From the NCBI GenBank assembly GCA_900321965.1, contig ONYA01000020.1, forward strand, positions 1 through 44,471: DNA of 44,471 bases, written 5' to 3'. How positions within the stretch are numbered: the first letter of the stretch is position 1; every line of letters starts with the position of its first letter. A program made the position numbers and the translations under genes. This DNA is from an uncultured Prevotellaceae bacterium. GTDB taxonomy: Bacteria; Bacteroidota; Bacteroidia; Bacteroidales; Bacteroidaceae. Of the stretch, positions 1 to 17,241 are shown piece by piece. Below the pieces are notes generated by a model. That model made no database searches and had not been told where the DNA came from. It worked only from the letters and a program-made list of their open reading frames with translations.

Positions 1-7
1 CGCAATG

Positions 8-39
8 CAAAGGTACGACAAAAGAAGTGAACCACCAAA
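8..39 (-). promoter_or_regulatory. Leftward promoter for a gene beyond the left edge
   Basis: Read on the minus strand there is TTTG (36-39), a 20-nt spacer and TACCTTTG (8-15), an exact fit to the Bacteroidota -33/-7 promoter. The gene it serves lies outside the window. Confidence 0.6.
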
Positions 40-66
40 TGTTTTTAGTTTTTTTCAGATATAAAC

Positions 67-97
67 AGAGCCGCAACGACTGATGCGTTGCGGCTCT
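67..97. terminator. Strong 12-bp hairpin, possible terminator
   Basis: AGAGCCGCAACG (67-78) pairs perfectly with 86-97 around a 7-nt loop. It lies downstream of the Rpn remnant and upstream of the leftward promoter at the window edge. There is no long T-run directly after it on either strand, so terminator function is inferred from position and stem strength. Confidence 0.45.
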
Positions 98-177
98 GCA
101 AATCTAATCCTGTATAGTATGTAATACCTTATTTGTTGAACGGATAATATACTGTTGACAATGACAACGTAATGGTG

Positions 178-270
178 TTAGCAGGATTTTCTACGTCTTG
201 CAGAATAAGCACCGACGGGCAGCAGACGTTTCAGGGCCCAGTCAAAGCTGATGAATGTACGTTCTCTCAT
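178..270 (-). pseudogene. Remnant 5' end of an Rpn-family (PD-(D/E)XK) nuclease gene
   Basis: A 30-codon reading frame begins with residues including FISFDWALKRLL, which resembles the N-terminus of Rpn-family recombination-promoting nuclease/putative transposase proteins common in Prevotella and Bacteroides. Those proteins are normally about 300 aa. After RLL the frame no longer resembles the family and it stops soon after. A consensus promoter still stands directly upstream (293-324). The most likely reading is the decayed stump of an Rpn gene. The family call rests on a short match recalled from memory. Confidence 0.45.
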
Positions 271-2094: not shown

Positions 2095-2903
2095 TATTCA
2101 CTCACTACGAAAGCATCATAATATGAACCATTGAAACTTACACCGGCAGCTGGTATGACGTATTTAAACCCGAAATAATAGGCATTGTCATCGGGATCAA
2201 ACATAGAAGCCTTGTCAGCAGCTTGCTGTGCATAGACGTCACCGTAACCAGGATATGCCCAGCCCTGTGAGATGGAAGGTTCGTTGATGGTTATGTTGTT
2301 CTCGTCATCGACGGTGAACGTGAAGGTGTGAGCCATTGCTTCATCGTCAATTTTGATACGATAACATTTCAGAATCTCTGAGAACTCCAGAACGCTGTTA
2401 GCTACCTCTGCCTCGTTGAACTGCGAGTAGTATGTGCCAGTCTTGTAAGGCTTGAAGTCCTCCTTCACTACGCTCAGTTCAGCACGTGGGCAGTTGACGA
2501 TGGTGTCGGCATACTGTGTGGTGAACTCCTCGGGAACAGTGATGGCAGCTCTGTAAGTCTTGAACATCTCCATGTTGTCGCTACATTGAATGGTTATGGT
2601 TGCTGTCTCGTCACCATCGTTGAAGGTTACCTGAGAAGGTACGCCAGTAAAGATGTCAGGTGTAGCAGTGGCAAACACCACGGGAACGGTCAGTGCTCCG
2701 CTCTTGTTGTTGCGGGCGTATGTCACCTCGAATGTGTTGCCATCCGAAGGTACGGTGATGCTGTTAGACGATGCGATAAACACATTCAGTCCTTGGGCAT
2801 TAGTAGGTGCACCTGCCGACCAATCATCGTCGTCGCTGCATGAGGCTGCCATCAGACTCATCACGGCAAGGCCTGTCATCAGGAATAATTTATTGAGTTT
2901 CAT
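2094..2903 (-). CDS. SusD-linked surface lipoprotein with Calx-beta-like N-terminal domain
   Basis: This 269-residue predicted lipoprotein has a signal peptide ending in MAASC, followed by an SDDDD stretch of the kind that favours surface export of Bacteroidota lipoproteins. Residues about 40-145 form a beta-rich, Calx-beta-like module (VTFNDGDETATITIQ). The C-terminal half (about 150-269) is unassigned and has several Tyr and Trp residues that could serve ligand binding. It sits third in the left operon, after SusC and SusD. This is where Sus-type loci carry extra surface binding lipoproteins, and it mirrors the 292-residue lipoprotein of the right operon. The ligand is unknown. Confidence 0.7.
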   Translation of the reverse strand: MKLNKLFLMTGLAVMSLMAASCSDDDDWSAGAPTNAQGLNVFIASSNSITVPSDGNTFEVTYARNNKSGALTVPVVFATATPDIFTGVPSQVTFNDGDETATITIQCSDNMEMFKTYRAAITVPEEFTTQYADTIVNCPRAELSVVKEDFKPYKTGTYYSQFNEAEVANSVLEFSEILKCYRIKIDDEAMAHTFTFTVDDENNITINEPSISQGWAYPGYGDVYAQQAADKASMFDPDDNAYYFGFKYVIPAAGVSFNGSYYDAFVVSE

Positions 2904-2935
2904 AATCTTTATGTCTTTTTTTTGTTGATTATTAA

Positions 2936-4567
2936 TTAATCGGTCACACCGTCACGCAAGTTAGGATACTGATCCTGCTCAGGCTGGTGACTGCCAGAGT
3001 TGTCGACGATACCAGCATTCGTGTTGGTCTCGGTGTCGCAGAAACGCATCAGCAACCAAGGATCGTCGGCAGGAATGTTGAAGCGGAAGGCAGTAGGCTG
3101 GTTGTTGGTGTCGTCGTGGAAACGAACCACCGGCTTCTGCAGACGCATGATGTCGCTCATGGCGAAGCCCTCGCCCCACAGCTCTACGCGGCGCTGATAC
3201 CAGATCTCGTCTGACAGTGAACGACCAGCTGCAGCTGATGAGTACTCAGGATCGCGGTAAGTCTTCACGAAGCTCTCCAGCACGTTACGTGCCTCAGCCT
3301 CCTGGCCGCTCTTAGCCAGACCCTCAGCCTTGATGAGAATCATCTCCTCAACACGCATCAGAGGATAGTCGTTGATGTTGTTGGTTGAGCCGATACCGTC
3401 TTTCATGCCGAACTTCACGTTAGCATACGGTGTGAAGGCCATCTTCACGTCGTCAATCTCCAATGTGCAAATATCGTCACCCACAGCGTCACCCCAGCTT
3501 TCGTTGGCCAGCAGCGGTGAGTGGAGGTCTTCGTCGACCCACCAGCCCTTACGGACGTCGGTCTCAGGAATCTTGTTCCACAGCAGGGTGTTGATGCTTG
3601 CATAACATGCGCAGGCAGCAGCATAGCCGTCACCACTGAATGAGCTGAGCCATGAAGAGCTGGTAGCGTATGCATAGTTAGTACCGATGGTCATGTTCTG
3701 TGTAATCTCGATACCCCAAATCCAGTTAGGCTCGCTGAGGTCGCAGAAAGCAGGACCGGTAATCGTAGCAGGCTCGTAGCCAGCCATAGCCTTGTCGGCG
3801 TCGGCAGCGGCGTCAGCCCAGTTACCCATAATCAGGTTGACACGGGCACGGAGACCATAGGCCACCTGCTGGTTCACGCGCGTCTTGTTGGTACGCTTGT
3901 TGTCCAGATTGTTGATGGCATAGGTCAGGTCATCCATGATGAGCTTGAACACAGCCTCCACTGTGGCGCGGGGGTTGTTTGAAAGCTGATCGTCAGGCGT
4001 CTCCTCGGTGACGATGGGCACAGCGGGCTTATCCTTGGCAATCTGGTAGTTGAACTGGAAGTACTGTACCAGTGCCAGATAGTCGAAAGCACGGATAGCG
4101 TGAGCCTGAGCGCACATGTTTTTACCAACGCTGTCGGTAGCCTCTTTGTTCTCCCTGATCAGGTCGTTAGCCATCTTAATCTGGTTGTACGGCGTAGCGT
4201 AGCGGATGTAAGGATTGGCGTAGTTAGCATTACGTGAAGAATACTCACCGCAGACGCTGAACCAGTTGTAACCGCTGTCGTCATAAATGTAGTCAGGACC
4301 CTCGCAGTCGCAAGAAATGGCCTGAGTGATGAATCCGAAGTCGTCAGCACGCGACGAGCTACGGTTAAATACACCGTTGGGCTGTCCCATCATGTTGAAC
4401 ATAGATGAGAACGAAGCCTCTGCACGGGCAGGAATCATATCCTTGGAAGTCTTCACCTGGTCTTCGGTAATGCTGCCGCTTGCCGGCTCCATCTCGTCGA
4501 TGTCGCTGCACGAAGCAAGGGTCATCAGACCGGCTAATGCAATGAATGAAATTTTATACAGTTTCAT
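2936..4567 (-). CDS. SusD/RagB family outer-membrane lipoprotein, left operon
   Basis: This 543-residue lipoprotein has the lipobox LASC at about residue 20. It has SusD-family features: helical TPR-like segments (ICAQAHAIRAFDYLALVQYFQ-like region near residue 150 and GLRARVNLIMGNWADAAADADKAM near 240) and the C-terminal motif with RRVELWGEGFAMSDIMRLQ. SusD proteins cap the SusC channel and capture the nutrient at the cell surface. It lies about 30 nt after the left susC and should be co-transcribed with it. It shows little similarity to the right-hand SusD, so the two states of the switch probably recognise different ligands. With a peptidase in the same operon, a peptide or glycoprotein ligand is as likely as a glycan. 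Confidence 0.93.
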   Translation of the reverse strand: MKLYKISFIALAGLMTLASCSDIDEMEPASGSITEDQVKTSKDMIPARAEASFSSMFNMMGQPNGVFNRSSSRADDFGFITQAISCDCEGPDYIYDDSGYNWFSVCGEYSSRNANYANPYIRYATPYNQIKMANDLIRENKEATDSVGKNMCAQAHAIRAFDYLALVQYFQFNYQIAKDKPAVPIVTEETPDDQLSNNPRATVEAVFKLIMDDLTYAINNLDNKRTNKTRVNQQVAYGLRARVNLIMGNWADAAADADKAMAGYEPATITGPAFCDLSEPNWIWGIEITQNMTIGTNYAYATSSSWLSSFSGDGYAAACACYASINTLLWNKIPETDVRKGWWVDEDLHSPLLANESWGDAVGDDICTLEIDDVKMAFTPYANVKFGMKDGIGSTNNINDYPLMRVEEMILIKAEGLAKSGQEAEARNVLESFVKTYRDPEYSSAAAGRSLSDEIWYQRRVELWGEGFAMSDIMRLQKPVVRFHDDTNNQPTAFRFNIPADDPWLLMRFCDTETNTNAGIVDNSGSHQPEQDQYPNLRDGVTD

Positions 4568-4597
4568 ATTTTCTATCTTTTTTACGTTTCTACTTGA

Positions 4598-7500
4598 TTA
4601 GAATGTTACCGTCAGGCCAGCCGTGATAGTGCGCATAGCAGAATATGAAGAAGTGCTCATACCCATACCAGACGAGTAACCACCAACAGTCATAGAGTAA
4701 CGAGGATCAAGACCCTTGCGCTTTGACCATACATACAGGTTCTCACCCGATACATAGAGGCGCAGCGAGGTCAGTGTAAGCGGAGCGATGAGCTTCTTGG
4801 GGAAGGTGTAGCCCAGCTGAACGTTGTTGATGCTCAGGTAGTTTGAGCTGATGAGGAAACGGTCGACAGAAGTCTGACCAACCTGTGTGTCACCATCCAG
4901 ACGGGGGATGTCGCTACCCTGGTTGGTGGGTGACCATGCATCGAGGGCGTCCTTGTGCCAAGCACTACCGATATTGTTCTGAGTGTGCATCAGAGCCTGA
5001 TACTGAGAGTCGTAGACCTTACCACCCAGCTGGTAGCTTACCTGTGCGCTCAGGTCGAAGCCGTAAGCACGTGCGTTGAGGCCGAAACCACCATAGATGT
5101 CAGGCATAATAGTACCCAGCTCATACTGGTCAGCGTCAGAGAATACGTCAGTCGTCAGGTCACGGCCAGTGTAGATCTTCTTGCCATTGGCATCGAGCTT
5201 GGCGCTACCGTCTTCGTTCTTCTCATATTCCTTATAGTAGTAGAGAGCCTTACCTGTTGAAGGATCAACACCGGCGTAGCGGCGCATATAGGCGTCATAG
5301 ATAGAACCGCCGATCTTGATGATACGAGAACCGCTCTTGAGACCTTCCTCAGCTACAGAGGGGTCGAGCTCGGTAATCTCGTTCTTCACGTGAGTCAGGT
5401 TCATGTTCAGACCAATCTCGATGTCGTTGTTCTTGTAGAGGATACCATCGAGGTTCAACTCAATACCCTTATTGGTCATCGAACCAATGTTCGTGGTGAC
5501 GAAACCTGTCACGTTACCTGATGACAGGGGCACATCCTTGAAGTACAGCATGTCGCTGGTCTTACGTGAGAAGTACTCGATGGTACCGGTCAGGCGGTTC
5601 TTCAGCACGGCGAAGTCGAAGCCGATGTTGAAAGCCTTCGAGCTCTCCCATGTCAGATCTTCATTGCCCTTCCAAGTCATCTTCAGGCTGTAGCCTGCCG
5701 TCGAGCTCCAAGAAGGCTTGTACTGAGTGATGTAGGGATAGTACTGGTCGTAGCCGTTGTTGTCAAGAATGTTGTCGTTACCCTGCACACCGTAGCTGGC
5801 CTTGAACTTCAACATATCCAGCCAGTCAACCTTCTCCATGAACTTCTCCTTGGCAATCTCCCAAGCAACACCGACGCTGCCGAAGGTACCCCAACGGTGA
5901 CCGGGAGCGAAGCGGCTCGAACCGTCGCGACGGATAGAACCGTTCAGGAAGTACTTCTCCTGGAAGTCATACTGCAGACGGCCCAAGAAGCCTTCTGTCA
6001 TATAGTTGTCGACACTTGACTTCGGGTCCTTGTTCTCAGAACCTAAGGCATTGTCCAGTTCACCAATGTACGGATCGTACAGGTGGTCGTTCTCACCGGA
6101 GAGTTCCTGAATCTTCAGCTTGTACTGCTCGTAACCTGCCAGCAGCTCCAAGTGGTGCTGGTCGTCGAGGAAGCTGGTCTTGTAGTTGGCCAGATACTGG
6201 TTGGTGACGGCGAAGACACGCTGATTGTAGACGTATGCCGAACCGTCGACACTGCTGCCAGAGCCGAAGGTGCTGGCGAGTGAGTTGTAGCGGCGGTTGC
6301 GTGCCGATACCGACAGGTTGGCGCTCAGTGTCAGACCCTCGATCGGGGTAAGAATAGCCGAGAACTTGCCGTTGTAGTGGTCGCGGTAGTCCTTACGCGT
6401 GTTTAGCTCGTTGTCGCGGATGGCGTTGCCTACTACGCTCGGACGCTTGAAGTTGGTCTGGTTGGCATCGTAGACGGTCAGTCCGTTGTCGTCGTGCTTG
6501 ATGCTGCCGTCAGCATTGCGGACGTAGAGGGGATAGATGGGACCCATGTTGTTGGCAATGTAGAACAGGTTGCCGCTCGAACCCCATGTAGAGCCGTAGG
6601 AAGGCTGCTCAGAGTCTACGTGCGTGTAGCTCATGTTGGTGCCGACCTTCAGCCACTTCTTCACCTGGTAGTCCACGTTCAGTCGGGCGCTGTAACGCTC
6701 CATATTAGAGTTGTTCACCACACCGCCGTCGTTCAGGTAACCTACGCTGGCGTAGTAGTTCAGACGGTCGGTAACGCCGCTGAACGATGCGTTATACTCC
6801 TGACGGAACGAGTTGTGGAATGTCTCGTCGTACCAGTCATCGGGCGTATAGTAGTATTTGCCGTCGCTGTAACCCAGCGTAGCGTTCGGGTTCAGTTTGA
6901 AGTTCGTACCGATGAGCTTCTCACCCTCGGGAACGGTGTAGACCTGGTAGCCCAGACCGCCGTTCTTCTCGTTCAGCAGGTTGGCATCAGCAAAGGCATA
7001 AGCCTCAGCAGCCGACTTGCCAGCATAGATCTGCGAGTTGTACAGCTTCTGATAAGCCAGCTCGTAGTACTGTCCGGGATCTTTGATGATATCGTACTGC
7101 GGAATCAGACGTGAGTTAGAACCCCACTTGGCGTCGAAGCGGATCTCGGCGTCCTGGTCGCGGCCCTTCTTGGTGGTGATAAGCACAACACCGTTGGCAC
7201 CGCGGGCACCGTAGATAGCTGATGCAGAGGCGTCCTTCAACACAGTCATCGACTCAACATCCTGCGGGTTGATGGCGTTGATGGGGCCGTCGTAAGGCAT
7301 ACCGTCAACCACATACAGCGGGGTGTTTGATGCATACAGCGAACCTACACCGCGGATGCGGAGGGTAGGAGCGTTGGATGCGGGGTCGCCGCTCGACTGG
7401 ATAATCTGCACGCCAGGTGTGGTACCAGCCAGTGCCGATGTCACGTTGGTGGCAACGTGTGTCTCGATGGTCTTCGAGTCAATCTGTGTGGCTGAGCCGG

Positions 7501-7846
7501 TGAAGGCCGACTTCTTTTGTGTACCGTAGGCTACGACGAGCACCTCGTCGAGTGAAGCGGCATCCTGCTTTAGGAACACGCGCATACCATTCTTAGCCGC
7601 CACCGTCTTAGGCTCATAGCCTAAGTATGACACGGTAATCTGTGTCTTACCTTGAGGCAACGTCACAGAGAAACGGCCGTTAACATCAGTCAACATACCG
7701 GTTTTGGCACCCTCAACACGAACGGCAGCACCGATAATCGGCTGGCCGTCCTCTTGTGAGAGTACTGTTCCGCTGACTTTTGTCTGGGCAACAGCCACTA
7801 CACAGAGCAGCATCGTTGCCATTAACATCGTTAGTCTTTTTTTCAT
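4598..7846 (-). CDS. SusC/RagA family TonB-linked outer-membrane transporter, left operon (predicted OFF)
   Basis: This 1082-residue TonB-dependent importer has a signal peptide (1-20), a carboxypeptidase-D-regulatory-like domain (about 22-98), a TonB-box-like VVAYGTQ (about 105), a plug domain with LRIRG, PLYVVDGMP and VLKDASASAIYGARGANGVVLITT segments (about 120-225), and a large beta-barrel ending in an aromatic residue (AGLTVTF). The first ~96 codons and the leader are about 95% identical to the oppositely oriented susC at 10121; after that the proteins diverge to ordinary family similarity. In this orientation no TAnnTTTG promoter lies upstream on the minus strand between 7850 and 8100. 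The gene is therefore predicted silent until the 7954-10031 segment inverts. Confidence 0.95.
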   Translation of the reverse strand: MKKRLTMLMATMLLCVVAVAQTKVSGTVLSQEDGQPIIGAAVRVEGAKTGMLTDVNGRFSVTLPQGKTQITVSYLGYEPKTVAAKNGMRVFLKQDAASLDEVLVVAYGTQKKSAFTGSATQIDSKTIETHVATNVTSALAGTTPGVQIIQSSGDPASNAPTLRIRGVGSLYASNTPLYVVDGMPYDGPINAINPQDVESMTVLKDASASAIYGARGANGVVLITTKKGRDQDAEIRFDAKWGSNSRLIPQYDIIKDPGQYYELAYQKLYNSQIYAGKSAAEAYAFADANLLNEKNGGLGYQVYTVPEGEKLIGTNFKLNPNATLGYSDGKYYYTPDDWYDETFHNSFRQEYNASFSGVTDRLNYYASVGYLNDGGVVNNSNMERYSARLNVDYQVKKWLKVGTNMSYTHVDSEQPSYGSTWGSSGNLFYIANNMGPIYPLYVRNADGSIKHDDNGLTVYDANQTNFKRPSVVGNAIRDNELNTRKDYRDHYNGKFSAILTPIEGLTLSANLSVSARNRRYNSLASTFGSGSSVDGSAYVYNQRVFAVTNQYLANYKTSFLDDQHHLELLAGYEQYKLKIQELSGENDHLYDPYIGELDNALGSENKDPKSSVDNYMTEGFLGRLQYDFQEKYFLNGSIRRDGSSRFAPGHRWGTFGSVGVAWEIAKEKFMEKVDWLDMLKFKASYGVQGNDNILDNNGYDQYYPYITQYKPSWSSTAGYSLKMTWKGNEDLTWESSKAFNIGFDFAVLKNRLTGTIEYFSRKTSDMLYFKDVPLSSGNVTGFVTTNIGSMTNKGIELNLDGILYKNNDIEIGLNMNLTHVKNEITELDPSVAEEGLKSGSRIIKIGGSIYDAYMRRYAGVDPSTGKALYYYKEYEKNEDGSAKLDANGKKIYTGRDLTTDVFSDADQYELGTIMPDIYGGFGLNARAYGFDLSAQVSYQLGGKVYDSQYQALMHTQNNIGSAWHKDALDAWSPTNQGSDIPRLDGDTQVGQTSVDRFLISSNYLSINNVQLGYTFPKKLIAPLTLTSLRLYVSGENLYVWSKRKGLDPRYSMTVGGYSSGMGMSTSSYSAMRTITAGLTVTF

Positions 7847-7893
7847 AATCTCTCTCGTTTTTTGGTTTATAATATATTAATGATTCGTTTCGC

Positions 7894-7919
7894 GCGTGTA
7901 CCTTATATAATATGTACGC
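7894..7919. other. Candidate recombinase crossover site, left copy
   Basis: This 26-bp imperfect dyad has GCGT and ACGC at its ends and the perfect palindrome TTATATAA at its centre (7903-7910); 18 of 26 positions are symmetric. The same sequence occurs inverted at 10047-10072 in the other arm. Tyrosine recombinases usually bind dyads around a 6-8 bp core, so this is a candidate strand-exchange site. The assignment is by symmetry only. Confidence 0.35.
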
Positions 7920-7942
7920 CTCGATATAATATGTACGCCTCG
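7905..7942. repeat. Two tandem 19-bp units in the left arm
   Basis: The unit ATATAATATGTACGCCTCG occurs twice in exact tandem (7905-7923 and 7924-7942). The right arm has a single copy (10043-10061). The extra unit is the main difference between the arms upstream of the start codons. Confidence 0.95.
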
Positions 7943-7985
7943 GCGCACGAGGTGGGCGATTAATACTGTTTTGAACCATAATTTC

Positions 7986-8001
7986 GCCTTTTTTAAAAGG
8001 C
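7986..8001. terminator. 16-bp palindrome, possible insulator or terminator
   Basis: GCCTTTT and AAAAGGC pair with a 2-nt loop, inside the invertible segment between the recombinase start and the left arm. It might stop transcription crossing toward the OFF operon. The loop is too tight for a canonical terminator. Confidence 0.25.
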
Positions 8002-8062
8002 TGTGATAACTAAAAGTTCAAGAAAACCGTTATACGAATGTATTTATTCACCAAAAACGCTT

Positions 8063-9046
8063 ATGACTATGATAAAAATCAGTTTCCACTTTTACTTCCG
8101 AGTCCATGTTGTCCGCCAGACAAAGTCCCTGACACCTGCACAGTCTGCAAGAAAACCAGCAGATGTACCCTTGTTCTACGAGGCATTCTTGGCAAAGGTT
8201 AACGAACTGGGCAGCAGCGTCAGCGACTCTACGCGCAGCAACTACCTGACCGCCTTGCGTTCACTACGCAGTTTCGCCGGCAATGGCCTGCGCCTGTGTG
8301 ATGTTAATGCGACGCTACTCCAGCGTTATGAGCGATGGCTGCGCGACTGCGGGATATGCCCTAACACCACCTCCTGTTATATGCGCTCGTTGCGAACCAT
8401 CTTGTCGAAGTTGTTGCCGCGAGAGGAAGTGCTTGCCTCTTTTTCCAACGTCTATACTGGACGTGCTGCTACCGACAAACGGTCTGTTGACAGAGAAACC
8501 GTCAGCAAGGTGAAGAACCTGCAGCTGAAGGAACGGTCGGCACTGTCGCTGGCACGCGACATCTTTCTATTCTGCTTCTACGCCCTCGGCATGCCCTTCG
8601 TCGACGTGGCTTTCCTGCGCCGACAGCAGGTAAACGGTGACCAGATCGTCTACTACCGCCGCAAAACGGGTGCACGTGTCACCGTGCCGCTGCTGCCATG
8701 TATGAGAGACATCATGGGTAGGTACCAGAACAATACCTCCGACTACGTGTTCCCACTGCTTAGCAGCACCGACCCGCAGACGGCGTATAACGAGTACCTG
8801 ACGAAGCTCAACTGGTATAACCGCGCCCTGAAAAGACTGGCCCGGCGGGCAGGCGTGTCGGAGACGCTGACGAGCTACACCACTCGCCACACATGGGCTA
8901 CCACCGCCTACCACAACTGTGTTGAGCTGCCCGTCATATCGAAGGCACTGGGGCACAGTAGCCCGCAGACTACGCTGACTTACCTTCGCGAGATAAACGA
9001 CCACCGCCTGATGGAGGCCAACAGTCGTATTGTGCAACTGGTTTGA
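8063..9046 (+). CDS. Tyrosine site-specific recombinase (Bacteroidota DNA-invertase type)
   Basis: This is a 327-residue recombinase from the ATG at 8063; an in-frame GTG at 8003 would add 20 residues. A SAM-like core-binding domain (about 35-125) is followed by the catalytic domain. Visible catalytic elements are the beta-hairpin lysine in RRKTGARVTVPL (about K201), TSYTTRHTWAT with the second arginine (R275), ALGHSSPQTT (H298) and the nucleophile in TLTYL (Y307). The first box reads YALGMPFVDVAFL. Relatives that I recall have Arg just before Gly-Met, whereas here it is Leu. There is no arm-binding domain, as expected for an invertase rather than a conjugative-element integrase. It lies inside the segment that it probably inverts. 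Confidence 0.88.
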   Translation: MTMIKISFHFYFRVHVVRQTKSLTPAQSARKPADVPLFYEAFLAKVNELGSSVSDSTRSNYLTALRSLRSFAGNGLRLCDVNATLLQRYERWLRDCGICPNTTSCYMRSLRTILSKLLPREEVLASFSNVYTGRAATDKRSVDRETVSKVKNLQLKERSALSLARDIFLFCFYALGMPFVDVAFLRRQQVNGDQIVYYRRKTGARVTVPLLPCMRDIMGRYQNNTSDYVFPLLSSTDPQTAYNEYLTKLNWYNRALKRLARRAGVSETLTSYTTRHTWATTAYHNCVELPVISKALGHSSPQTTLTYLREINDHRLMEANSRIVQLV

Positions 9047-9194
9047 AATCGTACTTGCATGATTTCCCGTAAGTCAAAGATCGCTTCGCCCATGCTTGGG
9101 GGCTTGTTGATAAAGTAGTTTGTCACTCTTCGTACCAGCGGCGCCAAGTAAAACGAGGCAGACGCGTCTGGCAGTTTGTGCGGTGACGGTGTGA

Positions 9195-9262
9195 GGGACA
9201 GACGGTGCACAGAAGAACCTCTTATAAGGTTTAACGCGACGACGCGCTCTGTCCCGAATTGC
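9195..9262 (-). ncRNA. Possible structured RNA downstream of the 9268-9298 promoter
   Basis: An RNA started at about 9262 and read leftward would fold: 9248-9255 pairs with 9195-9202 (8 bp, TCTGTCCC/GGGACAGA), and inside it 9216-9220 pairs with 9227-9231. No convincing reading frame follows. Farther left the transcript would run antisense to the 3' end of the recombinase gene (stop at 9046). The whole assignment is inference. Confidence 0.3.
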
Positions 9263-9267
9263 GGCTG

Positions 9268-9298
9268 CAAAGTTACGCATTCCTGACCGCCGGCACAA
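9268..9298 (-). promoter_or_regulatory. Leftward promoter facing the recombinase gene
   Basis: On the minus strand TTG (9296-9298), a 20-nt spacer and TAACTTTG (9268-9275) match the Bacteroidota consensus. It points toward the 3' end of the recombinase gene, with no clear protein gene behind it. Confidence 0.5.
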
Positions 9299-9426
9299 GA
9301 CTTTGGGGTGGGTCAGAAGAATCCTAAAATACAAACTTGCTGATAGTCAATGCAGTTCACGGGCCATAGCTGAAATCCTATAGTTCAGCGTAGGGGTACA
9401 TTTAATCTCTTAAAACTTCTATGGTG

Positions 9427-9783
9427 ACACCTGGCGCACCTGACACTTAACTTGCTGATTACCAATATTGTTCTTTCTGGGTGGAGGTCGCACCTGAGGT
9501 GACACCTGAGGTCGCACCTAAGCTGATACTTGGGGTAGATCCTAAGTTTGTTTCCGAAGGTGAAAGACTTGGATATGTTTCACGATTGGGCCTAAAAAAA
9601 TATAGGCGTCTGGTGAAAAAATATAAGCCTCTCGTAAAAAAATAACGGCCGTTTAGAAATGTTTCACGGTTGTTGGTAAAGGAGATTGGAGTGGTGCGAC
9701 CTTTGGTGCGACCTTTGGTGCGACCAACGTTTGAAAAATAGATGTTGATAATCAACGGGTTAAGTGTCAGGTGCGCCAGGTGT
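9427..9783. repeat. MITE-like palindromic element with internal tandem repeats
   Basis: Terminal inverted repeats of 25 perfect bases (9427-9451 and 9759-9783) continue inward imperfectly for about 20 bases. The interior is itself repetitive: GGTCGCACCT-type units on the left, inverted GGTGCGACCTTT units three times in tandem on the right (about 9694-9728), and about three 20-bp AT-rich units in the middle (about 9593-9655). No transposase is encoded. It looks like a non-autonomous element or a repeat family dispersed in the genome. Confidence 0.5.
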
Positions 9784-9973
9784 TAGCATAGTCTGTTTTG
9801 TAGATCCTGGGCCGTTACCTTGAAGAACGCTATTTTGCAAGCCAAAGACAATTCCACAGGAGAAAACGATTACGAATAGAGTCTAAATTGTAACATTTTT
9901 ATAGTTTCCACTTCTAAAATGGCACTTAATTGTTAACAAAAAGGATAGAATTGTAATTTTTTGATAAATTTAT

Positions 9974-10004
9974 TCGTTTTTTTAATTCTTATATATTATC
10001 TTTG
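9974..10004 (+). promoter_or_regulatory. Switch promoter, facing the right SusCD operon
   Basis: TATCTTTG (9997-10004) is an exact TAnnTTTG -7 box. Twenty nt upstream, TTCG (9973-9976) is one mismatch from TTTG. A start near 10011 gives a leader of about 110 nt before the susC ATG at 10121. A 10-bp palindrome, TTGTTAACAA (9930-9939), lies upstream and could be an operator. The promoter is inside the invertible segment 28 bp from the right arm, and the inner side of the left arm has no equivalent. Confidence 0.7.
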
Positions 10005-10015
10005 CAAACTGAATT

Positions 10016-10047
10016 GGTGGGAAACCACTCTACCTCGTGCGCCGAGG
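10016..10047 (+). promoter_or_regulatory. Two small hairpins in the susC leader
   Basis: GTGG-GAAA-CCAC (10017-10028) is a tetraloop hairpin just before the arm. CCTCG-TGCGC-CGAGG (10033-10047) straddles the beginning of the arm. Both would lie in the 5' leader of the transcript. A role in RNA stability or recombinase binding is conjecture. Confidence 0.3.
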
Positions 10048-10408
10048 CGTACATATTATATAAGGTACACGCGCGAAACGAATCATTAATATATTATAAA
10101 CCAAAAAACGAGAGAGAATTATGAAAAAAAGACTAACGATGTTAATGGCAACGATGCTGCTCTGTGTAGTAGCTGTTGCCCAGACAAAAGTCAACGGAAC
10201 GGTACTCTCACAGGAGGACGGCCAGCCGATTATCGGTGCTGCCGTTCGTGTTGAGGGCGCCAAGACCGGTATGTTGACTGATGTTAACGGCCGTTTCTCT
10301 GTGACGTTGCCTCAAGGTAAGACACAGATTACAGTGTCATACTTAGGCTATGAGTCGAAGACGGTTGCCGCCAAGAACGGTATGCGCGTGTTCCTGAAGC
10401 AGGATGCC
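10032..10408. repeat. Right arm of the long inverted repeat bounding the switch
   Basis: This is the inverted counterpart of 7559-7953, covering 89 bp of leader and the first ~96 codons of the right susC. It has one 19-bp unit instead of two and one extra A before the start codon. The 86 bases 10032-10117 match the left arm apart from the missing unit. Confidence 0.93.
10047..10072. other. Candidate recombinase crossover site, right copy
   Basis: Inverted copy of the 26-bp dyad at 7894-7919, with the TTATATAA core at 10056-10063. It lies between the transcription start and the susC ATG, so exchange here would move the promoter but neither coding sequence. Confidence 0.35.
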
Positions 10409-13117
10409 AAAGCCCTCGACGATGTGATTGTCGTTGGTTATGGTACGCAGCGCCGTGAGGCCAAGACGGGTTCTATCACGACCGTCTCTGGTAACGAGAT
10501 TGCCGATATCCCTGCCACTTCGCTCGACAAGATGCTCGGTGGTAAACTGGCCGGTGTTACCATCACCCAGCAGTCTGGCCAGCCGGGTTCTATGTCAAGC
10601 ATCCGTATCCGCGGTAACAGCTCTATCAATGCCGGTAACGACCCTCTGTATGTGGTTGACGGTATTCCCGTCATGAGCGGTAACGATGCTGAGATGACGA
10701 ACACGTCGAACCCTATTGCCACCATCAACCCCGACGATATCGAGTCAATCACCGTGCTGAAGGATGCTGCTGCAGCTTCTGTCTACGGTTCGCGTGCTGC
10801 TAACGGTGTCATCCTGATTACCACCAAGAGCGGTAAGGAGGGCAAGTCGGTGTTCACCGTGCGTGCCAAGTACGGTGTGTCGTCGCTGGCTAATGACAAT
10901 GACTACGGCGTGATGACCGGACAGGAACTGCTGGAGTATCAGCGCGACGCTGTCAGAAATGCCGGTAAGAATCCTGACGATCCCACAGCCGGCGCTTCTT
11001 ACTATCGTCCCTACGAGCTGCTGACCCGTCCTCAGACCAACTGGATGGACCACTTCACCCGTCAGGGCAAGACCCAGGAGTATGAGATTACCATGTCGGG
11101 TGGCTCTGCCAAGACCAAGTACTACAACTCACTGTCGTATCACAAGACCGACGGTATCTACTACGGTGTCGACTTCGAGCGTATGCAGGGTCGTATCAAC
11201 GTAGACCACGAGATACTCTCGAACCTGAAGACCGGCACCCGCGTCAACCTGGGCTACACCGAGTCCAACGACGTGCCGATGCAGTCGCTCTACTATTCTA
11301 ACCCTGCCTTCGCCGGTATGACCATCCTGCCTTGGACGCCTGCCTATGACGAGAAGGGTAACTTCAACTCGAACATTCCCGAGAACTCTAACTCGAACCC
11401 CCGTGCCACGGCAGCCTATGACGACCAGTGGCAGAAGACCTACTTCGTCAATGCTAACTTCTACCTGGAGTGGAAGCCCATCAAGCAGCTGACCCTGAAG
11501 ACCACCAATGCCGCTGAGCTCAAGTTCGTCGAGAGCCGCCGCTACTGGTCGAAGGAAGCCCACAACAACGCTACGGGCTACCCCGAACTGCAGATGATTG
11601 ACAGCCAGCGCCGCAATCTGACGACCTCGAATACCGCAACGTGGGAAGACACCTATTTCGAGAAGCATAACCTCCGCGTCCTGCTCGGTCAGGAGGCCAA
11701 CCACTACCACTATCAGTATCTGTACGCTATGGCCGAGAACCTGAACCCGCAGATTCCCTACCTGCGTTCTGGCGACTCGTCGAACCATCCTGTTGAGGAC
11801 TACGATATGAACCGCACGATGCTGTCATACTTCGGTATCCTCGACTACAACTTCGACTCACGCTACTACCTGCAGGCCAGTATCCGTACCGACGGTTCGT
11901 CGCGTTTCGGTGAGAACAAGCGCTGGGGTACGTTCTGGTCGGTAGGTGCCAGCTGGAACATCCACAACGAGGCCTTTATGAAGGATATGAGCTGGCTCGA
12001 CATGGGTAAGCTGCGCGCCAGCTACGGTGTCAACGGTAACGATAACATTGCCGACTACCAGCAGTACGGTACTTACAGCACCAGTGTCTACAACGGTCTG
12101 ACCGGCCTGCGTCCCTCGACGCCCGCCAACCCCGACCTGTCGTGGGAGAAGAACTACGCCTGGAACATCGGTCTCGACTTCCGCTTCCTGAAGCGCTTCT
12201 CGGGTAGCATCGATGTCTACTCGCGTAAGACCGAGGACATGCTGCTCGACAAGGCTCAGTCTTCTACTTCTGGCTTTAACACCGCTACCGTGAACGTCGG
12301 TTCGATGCGTAACACGGGTGTTGAGTTCCAGTTCGACGCTGACATTATCGACAAGGGCGATTGGAAGTGGACTGCCGGCTTCAACATTGCTCACAACAAG
12401 ACGAAGATCCTCGAGCTGGCCGGCGACGAGATGATGACCTACTACACGGAGGATGGCGACGCTGAGAACCGTCTGAAGCACATCGTGGGCGAGTCGATGC
12501 TCACCTTCTGGCTGAAGGACTATGCCGGTGTGAACCCCGTCAACGGTGAGGCTCTCTGGCGCGACAAGAACGGCGAGCTGACCAACGACTACAATGCTGC
12601 TGCCGAGGTGAAGAGCGGTAGCCCCGAACCTACCTACACGGGTGGCGTGAACACCACCGTGAGCTGGAAGGGTCTTCAGCTGAGCATCGTCGGTGAGTTC
12701 AAGGGTGGCAACAAGGTGATGATCATCGAGAACCGCTACCTGACCTCTGACGGTAACCAGATGTCGATGAACCAGCAGAAGCACGCTCTCGACTATTGGA
12801 AGAAGCCGGGCGACACGGGCGTGAACCCCAAGCCTATTGCCGGTAATGCTACCAACTCATACAGCTTCTCTTCAAACCGCTTCATTGAGAAGGGCGACTA
12901 CTTCCGTATCAAGGATATCACGCTGTCTTACCAGTTGCCTAACACCCTGCTCAACAAGGTGGGCCTGAAGTCTACCCGCATCTATGCCAGCGGTCTGAAC
13001 GTCTATACCTTCCACGACGTGAACTTCTGGGATCCCGAGCGTGGCGTCGACGGTATGGGCTATGGTATCTATCCTGTCTCTAAGTCATTTATCGTAGGTC
13101 TCGACCTGTCGTTCTAA
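10121..13117 (+). CDS. SusC/RagA family TonB-linked outer-membrane transporter, right operon (predicted ON)
   Basis: This 998-residue SusC-like importer has a signal peptide (1-20), a carboxypeptidase-D-regulatory-like domain (about 22-98), a TonB-box-like DVIVVGYGTQ (about 100-109), a plug with IRIRGNSSINAGNDPLYVVDG and a VLKDAAAASVYGSRAANGVILITT segment (about 150-225), and a barrel ending in IVGLDLSF. It shares its leader and first ~96 codons with the left susC, but its plug and barrel differ and it is 84 residues shorter. The switch promoter at 9974-10004 faces it, so it is the predicted ON gene in this assembly. It imports an unknown ligand with the SusD encoded 43 nt downstream. Confidence 0.95.
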   Translation: MKKRLTMLMATMLLCVVAVAQTKVNGTVLSQEDGQPIIGAAVRVEGAKTGMLTDVNGRFSVTLPQGKTQITVSYLGYESKTVAAKNGMRVFLKQDAKALDDVIVVGYGTQRREAKTGSITTVSGNEIADIPATSLDKMLGGKLAGVTITQQSGQPGSMSSIRIRGNSSINAGNDPLYVVDGIPVMSGNDAEMTNTSNPIATINPDDIESITVLKDAAAASVYGSRAANGVILITTKSGKEGKSVFTVRAKYGVSSLANDNDYGVMTGQELLEYQRDAVRNAGKNPDDPTAGASYYRPYELLTRPQTNWMDHFTRQGKTQEYEITMSGGSAKTKYYNSLSYHKTDGIYYGVDFERMQGRINVDHEILSNLKTGTRVNLGYTESNDVPMQSLYYSNPAFAGMTILPWTPAYDEKGNFNSNIPENSNSNPRATAAYDDQWQKTYFVNANFYLEWKPIKQLTLKTTNAAELKFVESRRYWSKEAHNNATGYPELQMIDSQRRNLTTSNTATWEDTYFEKHNLRVLLGQEANHYHYQYLYAMAENLNPQIPYLRSGDSSNHPVEDYDMNRTMLSYFGILDYNFDSRYYLQASIRTDGSSRFGENKRWGTFWSVGASWNIHNEAFMKDMSWLDMGKLRASYGVNGNDNIADYQQYGTYSTSVYNGLTGLRPSTPANPDLSWEKNYAWNIGLDFRFLKRFSGSIDVYSRKTEDMLLDKAQSSTSGFNTATVNVGSMRNTGVEFQFDADIIDKGDWKWTAGFNIAHNKTKILELAGDEMMTYYTEDGDAENRLKHIVGESMLTFWLKDYAGVNPVNGEALWRDKNGELTNDYNAAAEVKSGSPEPTYTGGVNTTVSWKGLQLSIVGEFKGGNKVMIIENRYLTSDGNQMSMNQQKHALDYWKKPGDTGVNPKPIAGNATNSYSFSSNRFIEKGDYFRIKDITLSYQLPNTLLNKVGLKSTRIYASGLNVYTFHDVNFWDPERGVDGMGYGIYPVSKSFIVGLDLSF

Positions 13118-13160
13118 GAAGAATTGAAGAATTTGAATCATTGAAAAATTGAAGTAAGAT

Positions 13161-14588
13161 ATGAAAAAGACAATTATAGGACTGGCACTCATTGCCACCG
13201 CTGGCACGTTCACTGCTTGCAACGGCTTCCTTGAGGAAGAGCCGCTGATGAAGCAGAGCAACGAGCTTACCTTTGCCACTTACGAAGGCTTGAACCAGGC
13301 TGGTGCTGCCATCTATGGTATGATGCAGAGCGATGCTTGGTACGACGGACAGTTTGTACTGCAGTCAGAACTGCGCGGCGGTAACGCCAAGAACCCGCTT
13401 TCGATACCCGGTTCCGGCCGCTATCGTCAGGACGCACAGTGGAACTATACCGAGAGCAACACATCGTCACTGTGGACCTACGGATACTATACCATCTCAT
13501 GGTGTAACAACATTATCAACAGTCTGGAGACCACTGACAAGGGTGACGCTACCGCTCAGGATCTTAACAACCTGAAGGCCGAGGCTCTGTTCATGCGTGC
13601 TCTCTGCCACTTCGAGCTCGTCATCACCTACGCCCAGCCTTACAAGGCCGGCCGCGACAACATGGGTGTCCCCGTCGTGCTGAAGACCGAGAACGGACAG
13701 CCCAGCCGTAACAAGGTGGGTGAGGTCTACGACCAGGTCGTCAAGGACCTGCTGGAGGCTGAGAGCATCATCAGCGACAACTTCAAGCGTAGCGGCGTCG
13801 ACGACAATGCTGCCGTGGCTTCTAAGCCCGCTATCCAGGCACTGCTCTCGCGCGTCTACCTCTATATGGAGAACTGGCAGGGTGCTGCTGACTATGCTAC
13901 GAAGGTTATCAACAGCGGTAAGTTTGCACTTGCTTCTGGCGATGACTACCTCAACATGTTCAGCGCTGCTACTGCTCCCGAGGGTGGCGAGATTATCTTC
14001 GAGGTCTATGGTTCGAAGAAGAATGGCTACTGGGACGGTTCCGGTTGGACCCACCTGGCCTACATCACCAGCTGGGGTAACGGTAACGACGGTTCTGGCG
14101 ACGTGTGCGCCACGACTGACCTGGTGAACCTCTACGAGGCTGGCGACATCCGTCTGAACCTGTTCGCAAAGAACGAGAACGACAACCTCATCCTGAAGTA
14201 CAAGGGTAAGGAAGGCTCCGTTCCCCGTGAGACCAACGTGCCCATCCTCCGTCTGTCGGAGATGTACCTGAACCGTGCCGAGGCTATCCTCAATGGTGCC
14301 AGCGTTAGCGGTGCCAGCGCACGTGGTGACTTGGAGGCTGTTGCCTCAAAGCGTGGTGCTACCGTTCCTGGTCAGTTTAATGTGTTAGAAGAGCGCCGCA
14401 AGGAGCTGATGTTCGAGGGTCATATCGTCTATGACCTCGCCCGTACGATGAGCCCGCTCAACCGTACCGACTTCGACGGCACGATGAACCAGAATCTGCC
14501 CGCTGCTCCTGACTACCACTGGGCTATGCCTATCCCCAAGCGCGAGCGCGATGCAAACCCGAACGTAGAGCAGAATCCGGGATATTAA
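13161..14588 (+). CDS. SusD/RagB family outer-membrane lipoprotein, right operon
   Basis: This 475-residue lipoprotein has the lipobox FTAC at about residue 20. It shows the SusD fold pattern: LKAEALFMRALCHFELVITY near residue 140, a TPR-like segment YLYMENWQGAADYATKVI near 230, and the C-terminal RLSEMYLNRAEAIL and ERRKELMFEGHIVYDLART motifs. It would cap the 998-residue SusC. The 43-nt gap before it is made of ATTGAA-type short repeats. Its sequence is clearly different from the left-hand SusD (543 aa). Confidence 0.93.
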   Translation: MKKTIIGLALIATAGTFTACNGFLEEEPLMKQSNELTFATYEGLNQAGAAIYGMMQSDAWYDGQFVLQSELRGGNAKNPLSIPGSGRYRQDAQWNYTESNTSSLWTYGYYTISWCNNIINSLETTDKGDATAQDLNNLKAEALFMRALCHFELVITYAQPYKAGRDNMGVPVVLKTENGQPSRNKVGEVYDQVVKDLLEAESIISDNFKRSGVDDNAAVASKPAIQALLSRVYLYMENWQGAADYATKVINSGKFALASGDDYLNMFSAATAPEGGEIIFEVYGSKKNGYWDGSGWTHLAYITSWGNGNDGSGDVCATTDLVNLYEAGDIRLNLFAKNENDNLILKYKGKEGSVPRETNVPILRLSEMYLNRAEAILNGASVSGASARGDLEAVASKRGATVPGQFNVLEERRKELMFEGHIVYDLARTMSPLNRTDFDGTMNQNLPAAPDYHWAMPIPKRERDANPNVEQNPGY

Positions 14589-14626
14589 GCAATTGAAAAT
14601 TGATAATTGAAAATTGAATTAAAGTT

Positions 14627-15505
14627 ATGAAGCTATTTAAATTAACATACGGACTGATGGCTGCTTCGATGCTCGCTTTGGCATCGTGCGACCTCAACGA
14701 GTATCCTGAATTCGACGATGCTGATGCATTCATCGCATTCACAAGCAGCACTGCCTCTGTTGGTGAGGAAAGTGGCTCGTTGGAAATTCCTGTTCTTTTA
14801 ACATCGAAGTCGGGCATGACGGCTACTGCTGAAATAGAAGTTGTGGCTGATGCTGAGGGAACCACTGCTTTTGAGGGTACTGACTATACCATTGAAAACA
14901 AGACCTTGTCGTTCTCTGGTTTGGAAGGTGCCACACAGAAAATAAAGATCAATATCGTTGATAATGATGTCTTCAGTGGCAATAAGACGTTCAAGATCCG
15001 CCTGAAAGATGGTGGAAGTGTTAAGCTGGGAGCTGCCAAGACTTGTACGATTACCATCCAGGACAATGAGCACCCGCTCGCATTCATCCTTGGAACCTAT
15101 GGTGCATCGGCTGACTCTTACTTCTCAAGCCGTGGCCACTTTGATTGGGATATCACCATCACTCGTGATGATAACGATATCTCGAAGGTATGGATTGGCA
15201 ACCTCGATCCTTATTTCGCTGTAAACGGATATAACGTTTCTCGTAACTGCAATATCTTCTACGGCGTCGTTAATGATGAGAAGACCCAGATTCTTGTACC
15301 CGCAGGACAGAAACTCGGTTATGAGAATACGGAATTGGCTGCCTTTGTCGCTGCTGATCCTGACGAAGATGAGACTGAGGGTGATAACGTCGTTATCGAT
15401 ATCCAGGATAATGGTAACACGCTCGTCATTACCAATGCATGGGGTATTTATGATGATGGTTGGTGGAACTTGTTCCGTGGACCGATTACTCTGAGAAAGA
15501 AATAA
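14627..15505 (+). CDS. Surface lipoprotein with Calx-beta-like domain, right operon
   Basis: This 292-residue predicted lipoprotein has the lipobox LASC at about residue 21. Residues about 30-147 resemble a Calx-beta domain (ASVGEESGSLEIPVLL ... FSGNKTFKIRLKD ... CTITIQDNEHP). The remaining ~140 residues are unassigned and end in GWWNLFRGPITLRKK. It holds the same operon position, with the same architecture, as the 269-residue lipoprotein of the left operon, so the two are probably functional counterparts. A surface binding role next to SusCD is inferred. Confidence 0.72.
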   Translation: MKLFKLTYGLMAASMLALASCDLNEYPEFDDADAFIAFTSSTASVGEESGSLEIPVLLTSKSGMTATAEIEVVADAEGTTAFEGTDYTIENKTLSFSGLEGATQKIKINIVDNDVFSGNKTFKIRLKDGGSVKLGAAKTCTITIQDNEHPLAFILGTYGASADSYFSSRGHFDWDITITRDDNDISKVWIGNLDPYFAVNGYNVSRNCNIFYGVVNDEKTQILVPAGQKLGYENTELAAFVAADPDEDETEGDNVVIDIQDNGNTLVITNAWGIYDDGWWNLFRGPITLRKK

Positions 15506-15529
15506 ATAACGTTAAAAAGAAGAAAGATT

Positions 15530-17158
15530 ATGAAGAAACTGATATATAGTTTAGCAACCGTTCTTCTGGGTCTGGCCAGCTGTACCAGCTTTGACGACCC
15601 CACAACGGAGAACTATGGTGCCGGTCCCAGCGTTGATGTTACCATCACTGCCGGCACGCCCAGCGACTCAGCTTTCACCGTCGTTATTACGCCGGCTGCA
15701 GGCTCACTCTACTATGCCTATGCCATTAGCGAGGGCACACGGGTTGCTGTTGACTCTGCCACTCTTTACAAGGGTGGTTACAGTAATGATGTTGTCAAGG
15801 TGGCTGACAAGGCTACAACCACCCTTACGATTGACGATGCTAAACCCAACACCACGTACTACGTCTATGCTGTTGCAGGTAGCGACAAGGGTATTATTGG
15901 TAACATGACGGTTCAGAGCATCACGACTACCGACGTGCTGAGTCCTGGTCCGAAGACCATCCAGAAGGACGAAGACAATGCTGCTGTTAAGCTGACGTTC
16001 TCTGAGGCTATTCAGCGTGGCGAAGGTGCTGTGACGGCCCTGTACTACAAGGAGTGGGATATCTTGAGGCCCGTCGAAGTGCCTGCTGAGGATCTCACTG
16101 TTCAGGTGAGTGGTAGCTCAGTCATCTTTGCTGCTGATAATATTCCTGCCGGTGCCTACCTGTGCTTCTCGTATGCTGAGGGCGCTTTCAAGGATGCTAA
16201 GGGAAACCTCTGTCGCGCCTTGAATAGTGGTTTGGATTTGAGCAAAGGTCAGTTCACTGGTGCTTGGGTACATGTGACCAACGCTCCTTTCGAGATTACT
16301 GACGAATACGTGACCGCTCCCGAGGCTGGTGCCCTCATCGCAAAGGTTGAGGACTTCAAGGGCGAGATAACCCTGCCTTTCAATGTCTATCGTAATGATG
16401 AGGATGTGGCTGACGGCGCTATCAGCGTCACCTATACTAATAAGAAGAGTACCAGCACCTACAAGCTGAGTGCTCAGGACTGGAGTATCAGTGAAAACAA
16501 GGTCAACTTCGTGCTGCCCGCTGAACCTAAGGGTGGCGATGCCATTACCGTTTCCGTTGCCGAAGGAGCTATCTTCGATGTCTATGGTAATCCGAATGAA
16601 GAATTTACCAGTGAGATTGAATGGTACTATTTCGTTCCCACTAAGGAGAATGTGCTGGGTACTTTCAATATGGGTATCACCTATAAGGGCGAACCTTCTG
16701 ATCTCGGTAAATTCACTATCGTAGAGGATGCCACGGCTGAGAATCCGACAGGACTGCTCTTCAAGGATTTCTATCTCGAAGGTGCTGAACTGAGTGGTTA
16801 CTACGATCTCGATAATGCCAAGATGTATATCGGTGATGGTCAGATCGTCGGTAAGTACACTAACAGTAAGGGTACTACTTATGGGCTGGTATTCTACAAT
16901 GCAGAGAATGAGACAGAAGATCTCATTCCCGTTCCTTTCACCATCAATGCTGACGGAACGCTGACTGCAGATGTCATCTGGGGTATCTATGCATTTGACG
17001 AGAATTTTGAGACTCCTGCCGGATGGTTTGAGGTTGCTCAGACCTGTACTCTGACACCTGCTAAGGCTGCTGCCCGTAAGGCTGCTGCCCGTGGTAAGGC
17101 AAGCAAGACAGTGAAGGTTTCTGCTCGCAACCTGAAGAAAGGGTTTGTCCGCAAATAA
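15530..17158 (+). CDS. Surface lipoprotein with Ig-like/FN3-like domains, right operon only
   Basis: This 542-residue predicted lipoprotein has the lipobox LASC at about residue 18. Residues about 33-135 look like an FN3-type beta-sandwich (TYYVYAVAGSDKGIIG near its end). Residues about 140-380 resemble tandem bacterial Ig-like (Big_5/SbsA-type) repeats with FSEAI and IFDVYGNPNEEF motifs. The C-terminus is unusually basic (Lys/Arg/Ala-rich, ending LKKGFVRK). The left operon has no counterpart. It may be a cell-surface binding or adhesin-like component; the ligand is unknown. A strong terminator follows at 17175-17219. Confidence 0.7.
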   Translation: MKKLIYSLATVLLGLASCTSFDDPTTENYGAGPSVDVTITAGTPSDSAFTVVITPAAGSLYYAYAISEGTRVAVDSATLYKGGYSNDVVKVADKATTTLTIDDAKPNTTYYVYAVAGSDKGIIGNMTVQSITTTDVLSPGPKTIQKDEDNAAVKLTFSEAIQRGEGAVTALYYKEWDILRPVEVPAEDLTVQVSGSSVIFAADNIPAGAYLCFSYAEGAFKDAKGNLCRALNSGLDLSKGQFTGAWVHVTNAPFEITDEYVTAPEAGALIAKVEDFKGEITLPFNVYRNDEDVADGAISVTYTNKKSTSTYKLSAQDWSISENKVNFVLPAEPKGGDAITVSVAEGAIFDVYGNPNEEFTSEIEWYYFVPTKENVLGTFNMGITYKGEPSDLGKFTIVEDATAENPTGLLFKDFYLEGAELSGYYDLDNAKMYIGDGQIVGKYTNSKGTTYGLVFYNAENETEDLIPVPFTINADGTLTADVIWGIYAFDENFETPAGWFEVAQTCTLTPAKAAARKAAARGKASKTVKVSARNLKKGFVRK

Positions 17159-17174
17159 CTAATTGCCAAATAAA

Positions 17175-17219
17175 GTCCTCTTTCTGCTCTGCCTTGTGTG
17201 GGGCGAAAGAGGGCTTTTT
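17175..17219 (+). terminator. Intrinsic terminator between the lipoprotein and C10 peptidase genes
   Basis: A 10-bp stem (17175-17184 with 17205-17214, one G-T pair; CCTCTTTC/GAAAGAGG at its core) is followed directly by TTTTT. It should end most transcripts of the right operon before the peptidase gene. I saw no consensus promoter between it and the ATG at 17242, so the peptidase depends on read-through or on a promoter I cannot recognise. Confidence 0.75.
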
Positions 17220-17241
17220 AGTGTTAATAAGGAAACAAAGA

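Follow-up and report, generated by a model that had tools for sequence, protein, structure and literature searches.

Architecture of the locus

The window analyzed here is a stretch of 44,471 nucleotides (nt), contig ONYA01000020.1 of assembly GCA_900321965.1, from an uncultured Prevotellaceae bacterium, and the element under study is a candidate DNA inversion switch between two divergent SusC/SusD (SusCD) operons. The source genome comprises 2.92 Mb in 92 contigs (the window being contig C44) and is estimated to be 78.7% complete. According to the list of open reading frames (ORFs) and Pfam matches, the two operons occupy positions 400-18,807, each including a C10 peptidase gene, and the interval between the susC starts (7846 and 10121) contains a tyrosine recombinase gene and about 1 kb of non-coding DNA. 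A first-pass annotation, made from the sequence alone, had described a divergent susC pair, long inverted repeats over the leaders and 5' ends of these genes and a tyrosine recombinase between them, and all three are present. The features of the proposed switch are as follows (bp, base pairs).

4598-7846, minus strand: left susC (PF07715 Plug, PF13715), predicted to be off in this assembly
7518-7953, minus strand: left arm, comprising the site, a leader with an extra 19-bp unit and the first 97-110 or so susC codons
7938-7953, minus strand: putative left site, ACCTC-GTGCGCC-GAGG, with the 7-bp core at 7942-7948
7942-10043, no strand: putative invertible segment, core to core, delimited by the site positions and the end of arm identity
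8069-9046, plus strand: tyrosine recombinase and putative invertase, in a frame open from 8003 (PF13102, PF00589)
9973-10004, plus strand: predicted outward promoter, TTCG (9973-9976), 20 bp and TATCTTTG (9997-10004), facing the right susC
10032-10047, plus strand: putative right site, ACCTC-GTGCGCC-GAGG, with the core at 10037-10043
10032-10449, plus strand: right arm, comprising the site, a leader and the first 97-110 or so susC codons
10121-13117, plus strand: right susC (PF07715, PF13715), predicted to be on in this assembly

The recombinase and its relatives

The protein encoded within the segment carries the recombinase domains Phage_int_SAM_5 (PF13102, 50.7 bits; cut-off 22.3) and Phage_integrase (PF00589, 48.8 bits; cut-off 27.1), which confirms its earlier assignment. 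Residues K199, R273, H296 and Y305 are invariant across 15 aligned recombinases, that of the window included, and we take them, on the basis of the known motif, to be the catalytic Lys, Arg and His and the nucleophilic Tyr, respectively. The usual first catalytic Arg seems to be replaced (GMPFVD), a replacement also found in other Bacteroidota integrases.

Relatives of this recombinase occur between arm-bearing susC pairs in other genomes, and the best matches in that position are free of internal stops. Removal of near-identical copies reduced the 146 recombinases of the fetched loci (denoted by L numbers) to 101 distinct proteins, which are flanked by divergent susC genes on both sides in 36 cases, on one side in 10 and on neither in 55. 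On the recombinase tree, whose bootstrap support is unsettled, the susC-flanked label is clustered, requiring 17 changes against a mean of 29.8 after shuffling, with none of 500 shuffles as low. The two near loci among the best 80 of 343 from one scan of named genomes are L088 (RUG14573, recombinase 99% identical) and L089 (RUG200, 97%), both from Prevotellaceae metagenome-assembled genomes (MAGs), the RUG names presumably standing for rumen genomes. When the whole segment served as a DNA query, only short matches were obtained, in 9 of 60 relatives, and none of the 18 IMG/VR stretches that fit a pattern in a scan with the recombinase encodes a relative. Related recombinases are also found apart from susC: Bacteroides heparinolyticus has at least five (L131, L132, L133, L134, L139) that lack a susC within 6 kb in the fetched loci, and genome G355 contains four copies without susC (L186, L188, L209, L210).

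The inverted arms

The arms, of 436 and 418 bp, align with 390 matches, 27 mismatches and 20 gap columns; the figure of about 95% identity given earlier is thus nearly matched, the measured value being 93.5% outside gaps. No mismatch occurs across 10032-10170, and mismatches become dense from about 10409, which corresponds to codon 97, in keeping with the abrupt divergence after some 96 codons noted in the first-pass annotation. The left arm has one additional 19-bp tandem unit (7905-7923/7924-7942). Within its own assembly, a search with the right arm at E <= 0.001 recovers nothing beyond the right arm itself and, in two pieces, the left arm. While the first 100 residues of the two SusC proteins are 96% identical, their bodies share 37%, and codon identity among identical degenerate amino acids amounts to 79/90 in the first 100 residues versus 177/289 in the body; arm identity is therefore not explained by protein conservation alone. 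Over the 36 loci, the same comparison gives 1964/2623 versus 6394/11472.

At one leader position, the two arms of the window have a base in common that neither arm of L088 or L089 carries, and at two coding positions the right arm of the window carries the left-type base, where the right arms of L088 and L089 carry another; this three-site pattern is a trace of exchange between the arms. Each arm of L089 is short by about 100 bp relative to the window, at different places, a shortfall that we attribute to faulty assembly. In 16 of the 33 named loci that have a susC on each side, the main match between the arms terminates 289-385 nt into the left susC, the other loci having its end elsewhere or no match at all; the 289-385 nt limit is near the end of the N-terminal CarbopepD_reg_2 domain (window residues 24-104). 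In many loci the arms consist of two conserved blocks, namely the site and a block extending from about -35 into susC. The second block, spanning the signal peptide and N-terminal domain to about codon 97-110, is probably kept alike by exchange between arms and could probably serve as homology for swapping one operon for another. In L057 the contig breaks off within the second arm (15023-15158), whose 136 bp match the first arm at 99% identity; an inverted arm is expected to halt an assembler in this way.

The putative recombination site

Alignment of left and right leaders in 28 loci reveals, in most of them, a palindrome (C)ACCTC-N7-GAGGT(G) at the inner edge of the arms. An identical CTC-N7-GAG occurs on the two sides in 25 of 34 loci listed by hand, whereas control spacings of 4, 5, 6, 8, 9, 10 and 11 return 2, 3, 1, 2, 3, 1 and 1 loci, respectively, and shuffled sequences return none in each of 20 runs. 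The 7-bp cores vary between most loci and are common to near relatives (window/L088/L089 and L098/L100). In L102, L127 and L140 the site is conserved as an island of identity, the leader between it and the start codon having diverged. An overlap of 7 bp is known for some Bacteroidota integrases. The first-pass annotation regarded the arms as the recombining element; the repeats do flank the segment, but the recombining element is most likely, judging from these alignments, the short ACCTC-N7-GAGGT palindrome at the inner edge of the arm and not the whole arm. A third exact copy of the 16-bp site in the source genome was rejected as a further site, since it lies in a TonB-receptor-like coding frame, its identity extends over 17 bp and it shows no homology to the arms.

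The predicted promoter element

The Bacteroidales promoter consensus consists of a -33 TTTG and a -7 TANNTTTGY element, as given in the accessible text of PMC8748976. Between the recombinase and the left start codon, the window has no TAnnTTTG facing the left susC. TAnnTTTG is found inside the site, no more than 95 bp away, on one side only in 25 of the 26 loci with a site pair, on both sides in none and on neither in one, and a symmetric pair of promoters beside the sites was accordingly rejected. The one-sided element is on the 3' side of the recombinase in 21 loci and on the 5' side in four (L124, L130, L144, L197), mostly 35-46 bp from the site; shuffled 3'-side segments contain it in a mean of 2.0 and a maximum of 8 of 26 loci in 200 runs. 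When the whole non-coding interval is scanned, TAnnTTTG faces the right susC in 29 of 33 loci. A bipartite TT[TC]G-N18-22-TAnnTTTG match, counted without a shuffle control, is present in 33 of 36 loci, in L085 only far away, and absent from L090, L091 and L158. Another TAnnTTTG is located 34-43 bp upstream of the recombinase in 9 of the 33 loci, the window having no such match, and the recombinase may therefore have its own promoter. As predicted from the motif, the window would thus have a promoter between inverted sites, the arrangement that defines an inverton, with the left susC off and the right susC on in this assembly.

Proposed switch

We propose, with a probability of roughly 85%, that the locus is a self-contained site-specific inversion switch choosing between two SusCD operons. 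The recombinase inside the segment would recognize two inverted copies of ACCTC-N7-GAGG(T), placed 89 bp upstream of the right susC and 107 bp upstream of the left susC, and strand exchange would take place across their common 7-bp core GTGCGCC. A single outward promoter is predicted about 37 bp inside the right-hand site; since the segment would carry only one, its inversion in this strain would shift the start of transcription to the other operon, turning one on and leaving the unfaced one silent. In the present state, the right operon (SusC-SusD-Calx-beta-ORF-C10 peptidase) would be on. A binary promoter flip with the recombinase inside the flipping segment had been suggested earlier, and it gains support from the core-sharing palindrome, the one-sided -7 element (25/26) and an inverted pair of loci, L108/L119.

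Orientation among related loci

Both arrangements occur among related loci. In a comparison of SusC bodies without their first 130 residues, 9 pairs at or above 85% identity have both members on the same side of the recombinase and 8 have them on opposite sides; at or above 95% the counts are 5 and 2, and at or above 75% they are 27 and 32. Three locus pairs share both operons at 75% or more: window/L089 (SusC bodies 99% and 88%), L127/L197 and L108/L119. In the last, the SusC bodies are 92% and 90% identical and the operons align in reverse, with a DNA identity of 83-85%, against a forward alignment of the recombinase region at 72%. If the promoter element replaces the recombinase as the reference, L127/L197 moves from same to opposite, its promoter facing different operons.

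Several observations weigh against the proposed switch. The window, L088 and L089 are all in one orientation (n = 3); a single orientation among close genomes had been named beforehand as the adverse outcome, and the agreement of these three is a weak form of it. The recombinase is inverted in only that one of the three pairs sharing both operons, and because its segments are less similar than its operons and its cores differ, the inversion is an old difference rather than a recent flip. Taking the promoter element as the reference moves L115/L124 from opposite to same. Pairs sharing one operon (e.g., L102/L109, SusC 99%) are weaker evidence because operon replacement can imitate inversion, and the counts are not independent, since near relatives (window/L088/L089, L098/L100, L124/L130) are among the loci. 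An identical CTC-N7-GAG pair is missing from 10 of 36 loci, of which L126 differs at one core position, L092, L093, L096 and L137 seem to carry a variant of the site, and L091, L097, L109, L158 and L193 are left unclassified. The 33-locus scan also finds TAnnTTTG facing the left susC in six loci, with L097, L102 and L103 having it both ways, and L193 has bipartite promoter-like matches on both sides of the recombinase. Finally, codon identity in the first 100 residues does not exceed that of the body in 5 of 36 loci (L089, L091, L093, L109, L124).

Alternative explanations

RecA-type homologous recombination or gene conversion between the arms, with the recombinase as a bystander or relic, could account for arms that reach several hundred bp and are 75-98% identical, for the allele transfer between the arms of the window and for the raised codon identity in the first 100 residues across the 36 loci. 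It would not account for a short palindrome whose spacing is constant at 7 bp and whose core is common to the two sides of a locus and specific to it, nor for an island of identity that persists where the leader has diverged, and the intact frames of the best recombinase matches between susC pairs are at odds with a relic; we therefore regard this mechanism as improbable. The site-specific switch is likewise preferred over a fixed pair, whose orientation would be frozen and whose arm identity would stem from past duplication or conversion. The common orientation of the window and its two nearest relatives is what a fixed pair would show, but both arrangements exist among orthologous loci, and SusC bodies at 37% beside first 100 residues at 96% are not the product of a recent whole-gene duplication; a fixed pair is very improbable.

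A shufflon rather than a binary switch would involve further silent susC cassettes joining in through the same arm. Such a system is suggested by L096, in which positions 1-1954 hold a third, arm-like susC start (651 residues, cut by the locus edge) beside a two-operon switch, by the action of Tsr0667 of Bacteroides fragilis on several clusters (PMC4747536, accessible text) and by the incompleteness of the source assembly. Only two arms were found in that incomplete assembly, however, and the third exact site copy sits in a TonB-receptor-like frame without arm homology. For the window a shufflon is unlikely; some loci may be three-way shufflons, given the third susC start of L096.

Apparent operon replacement behind a shared switch

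Comparison of related loci indicates that one or both operons can differ while the switch stays the same. L088 has the right operon of the window and a different left SusCD operon (L088 2431-9797; SusC body 29% identical over 299 residues), its outer flank and switch resembling those of the window; beyond the replaced operon, at window positions 1-234, the DNA identity is 97%. In L088 itself the two arms agree over the leader and about the first six codons, their overall identity being 80% over 271 bp. The left operon differs, with a breakpoint inside the arm, in four pairs, the breakpoint falling 179 nt (window/L088), 326-330 nt (L094/L137 and L095/L096) or 402 nt (L124/L130) inside the left susC. 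Similarity of the DNA outside the differing operon in window/L088 and L094/L137 points to replacement in place. L126 (MAG RUG318) and L128 (Hallella mizrahii) have in common a 3,053-bp module, 96.4% identical, which runs from 330 nt inside the left susC to 328 nt inside the right susC; beyond it the fetched loci share no other DNA match of at least 100 bp on either strand, apart from the arms, and the SusC bodies are 28-41% identical. We tentatively suggest, at slightly less than even odds, that the arm-recombinase-arm module acts as a socket for the exchange of whole SusCD operons across strains and species, the locus-specific core preventing cross-reaction.

Content of the two operons

The remaining genes of the operons are listed below.

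400-2094, minus strand: C10 (streptopain-type) cysteine peptidase with I69 inhibitor domain, left operon (PF01640, E 3.8e-60; PF13734)
2094-2903, minus strand: 269-residue ORF, left operon, no Pfam match at E <= 0.001
2936-4567, minus strand: left susD (PF14322, PF07980)
13161-14588, plus strand: right susD (PF14322, PF07980)
14627-15505, plus strand: Calx-beta domain protein, right operon (PF03160)
15530-17158, plus strand: 542-residue ORF, right operon, no Pfam match at E <= 0.001
17194-18807, plus strand: C10 peptidase with I69 domain, right operon, first ATG at 17242 (PF01640, E 1.9e-51; PF13734)

Both sides qualify as SusC/SusD operons, having Plug, CarbopepD_reg_2, SusD-like_3 and SusD_RagB matches in Pfam. 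The source genome has 15 SusD_RagB matches and five C10 matches (one partial), two of each belonging to the operons of the window. A C10 peptidase in all switched operons was considered and rejected: across the 36 loci, 23 of the 60 sides with at least 5.5 kb downstream carry one, and peptidase-bearing operons are therefore frequent, not general. Where both sides are long enough (n = 24), a C10 gene is present on both in 5 loci, on one in 7 and on neither in 12. These operons may conceivably serve in the use of peptides, in antigen change or in escape from phages. At gathering thresholds, Rfam has no match in the window. Non-coding imperfect repeats of the GGTGCGACC / ACACCTGGCGCACC type occupy 9419-9791, inside the invertible segment, and belong to a dispersed family with 57 matches in the genome of the window, self included, many of them short.

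Relation to known systems and biological meaning

The founding description of the Tsr0667 SusC/SusD shufflon in Bacteroides fragilis is reportedly that of Nakayama-Imaohji in 2009. That SusC/SusD inversion is established in Bacteroides, as stated in the first-pass annotation, agrees with the accessible text of PMC4747536, in which Tsr0667 drives shufflon-type multiple inversion at three SusC/SusD clusters and nine other regions; PMC11852207 and the review PMC12632263, in their accessible parts, also treat the inversion in this species. Both there and in the window, a site-specific recombinase and DNA inversion alter which SusC/SusD genes are expressed, a change that is predicted here from promoter position. 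As far as that description goes, one Tsr0667 recombinase serves many regions, whereas here the recombinase lies within one two-operon segment and the core is mostly locus-specific. A Tsr0667-type shufflon has more than two sites or cassettes; only two arms were found in the incomplete assembly, and the locus is therefore not filed under that type. The Salmonella Hin flagellar switch likewise unites a recombinase gene and one promoter within a single invertible segment, but Hin is a serine recombinase and its other state is expressed elsewhere, in contrast to the tyrosine recombinase and two flanking operons found here. The invertible promoters of the IP-ARG classes (PMC8748976) and of capsule loci (PMC12118408) resemble the window in that an invertase gene adjoins an invertible promoter; in the accessible text of these papers they turn one operon on or off with the invertase beside the region, whereas here the invertase is inside and the choice is between two operons. 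The locus would be a self-contained binary variant of known SusC/SusD inversion, with locus-specific cores. No description of such a Prevotella switch was found in the titles, abstract openings and accessible passages of the papers listed on SusC inversion in Prevotella, from which its absence from print is not established.

The comparison of loci yields a precise and testable rule, in terms of site and promoter, for a family of switches that recurs among Prevotellaceae. This rule makes a sequence-based prediction of which importer operon of two is expressed and could explain partner changes between strains, and the locus-specific cores would supply a natural collection of recombinases with matching sites. 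The switch may bear on the choice of nutrients, on phage receptors and on antigenicity. If the socket proposal is correct, the module links rapid switching with the horizontal diversification of surface importers, a subset of which come with C10 peptidases.

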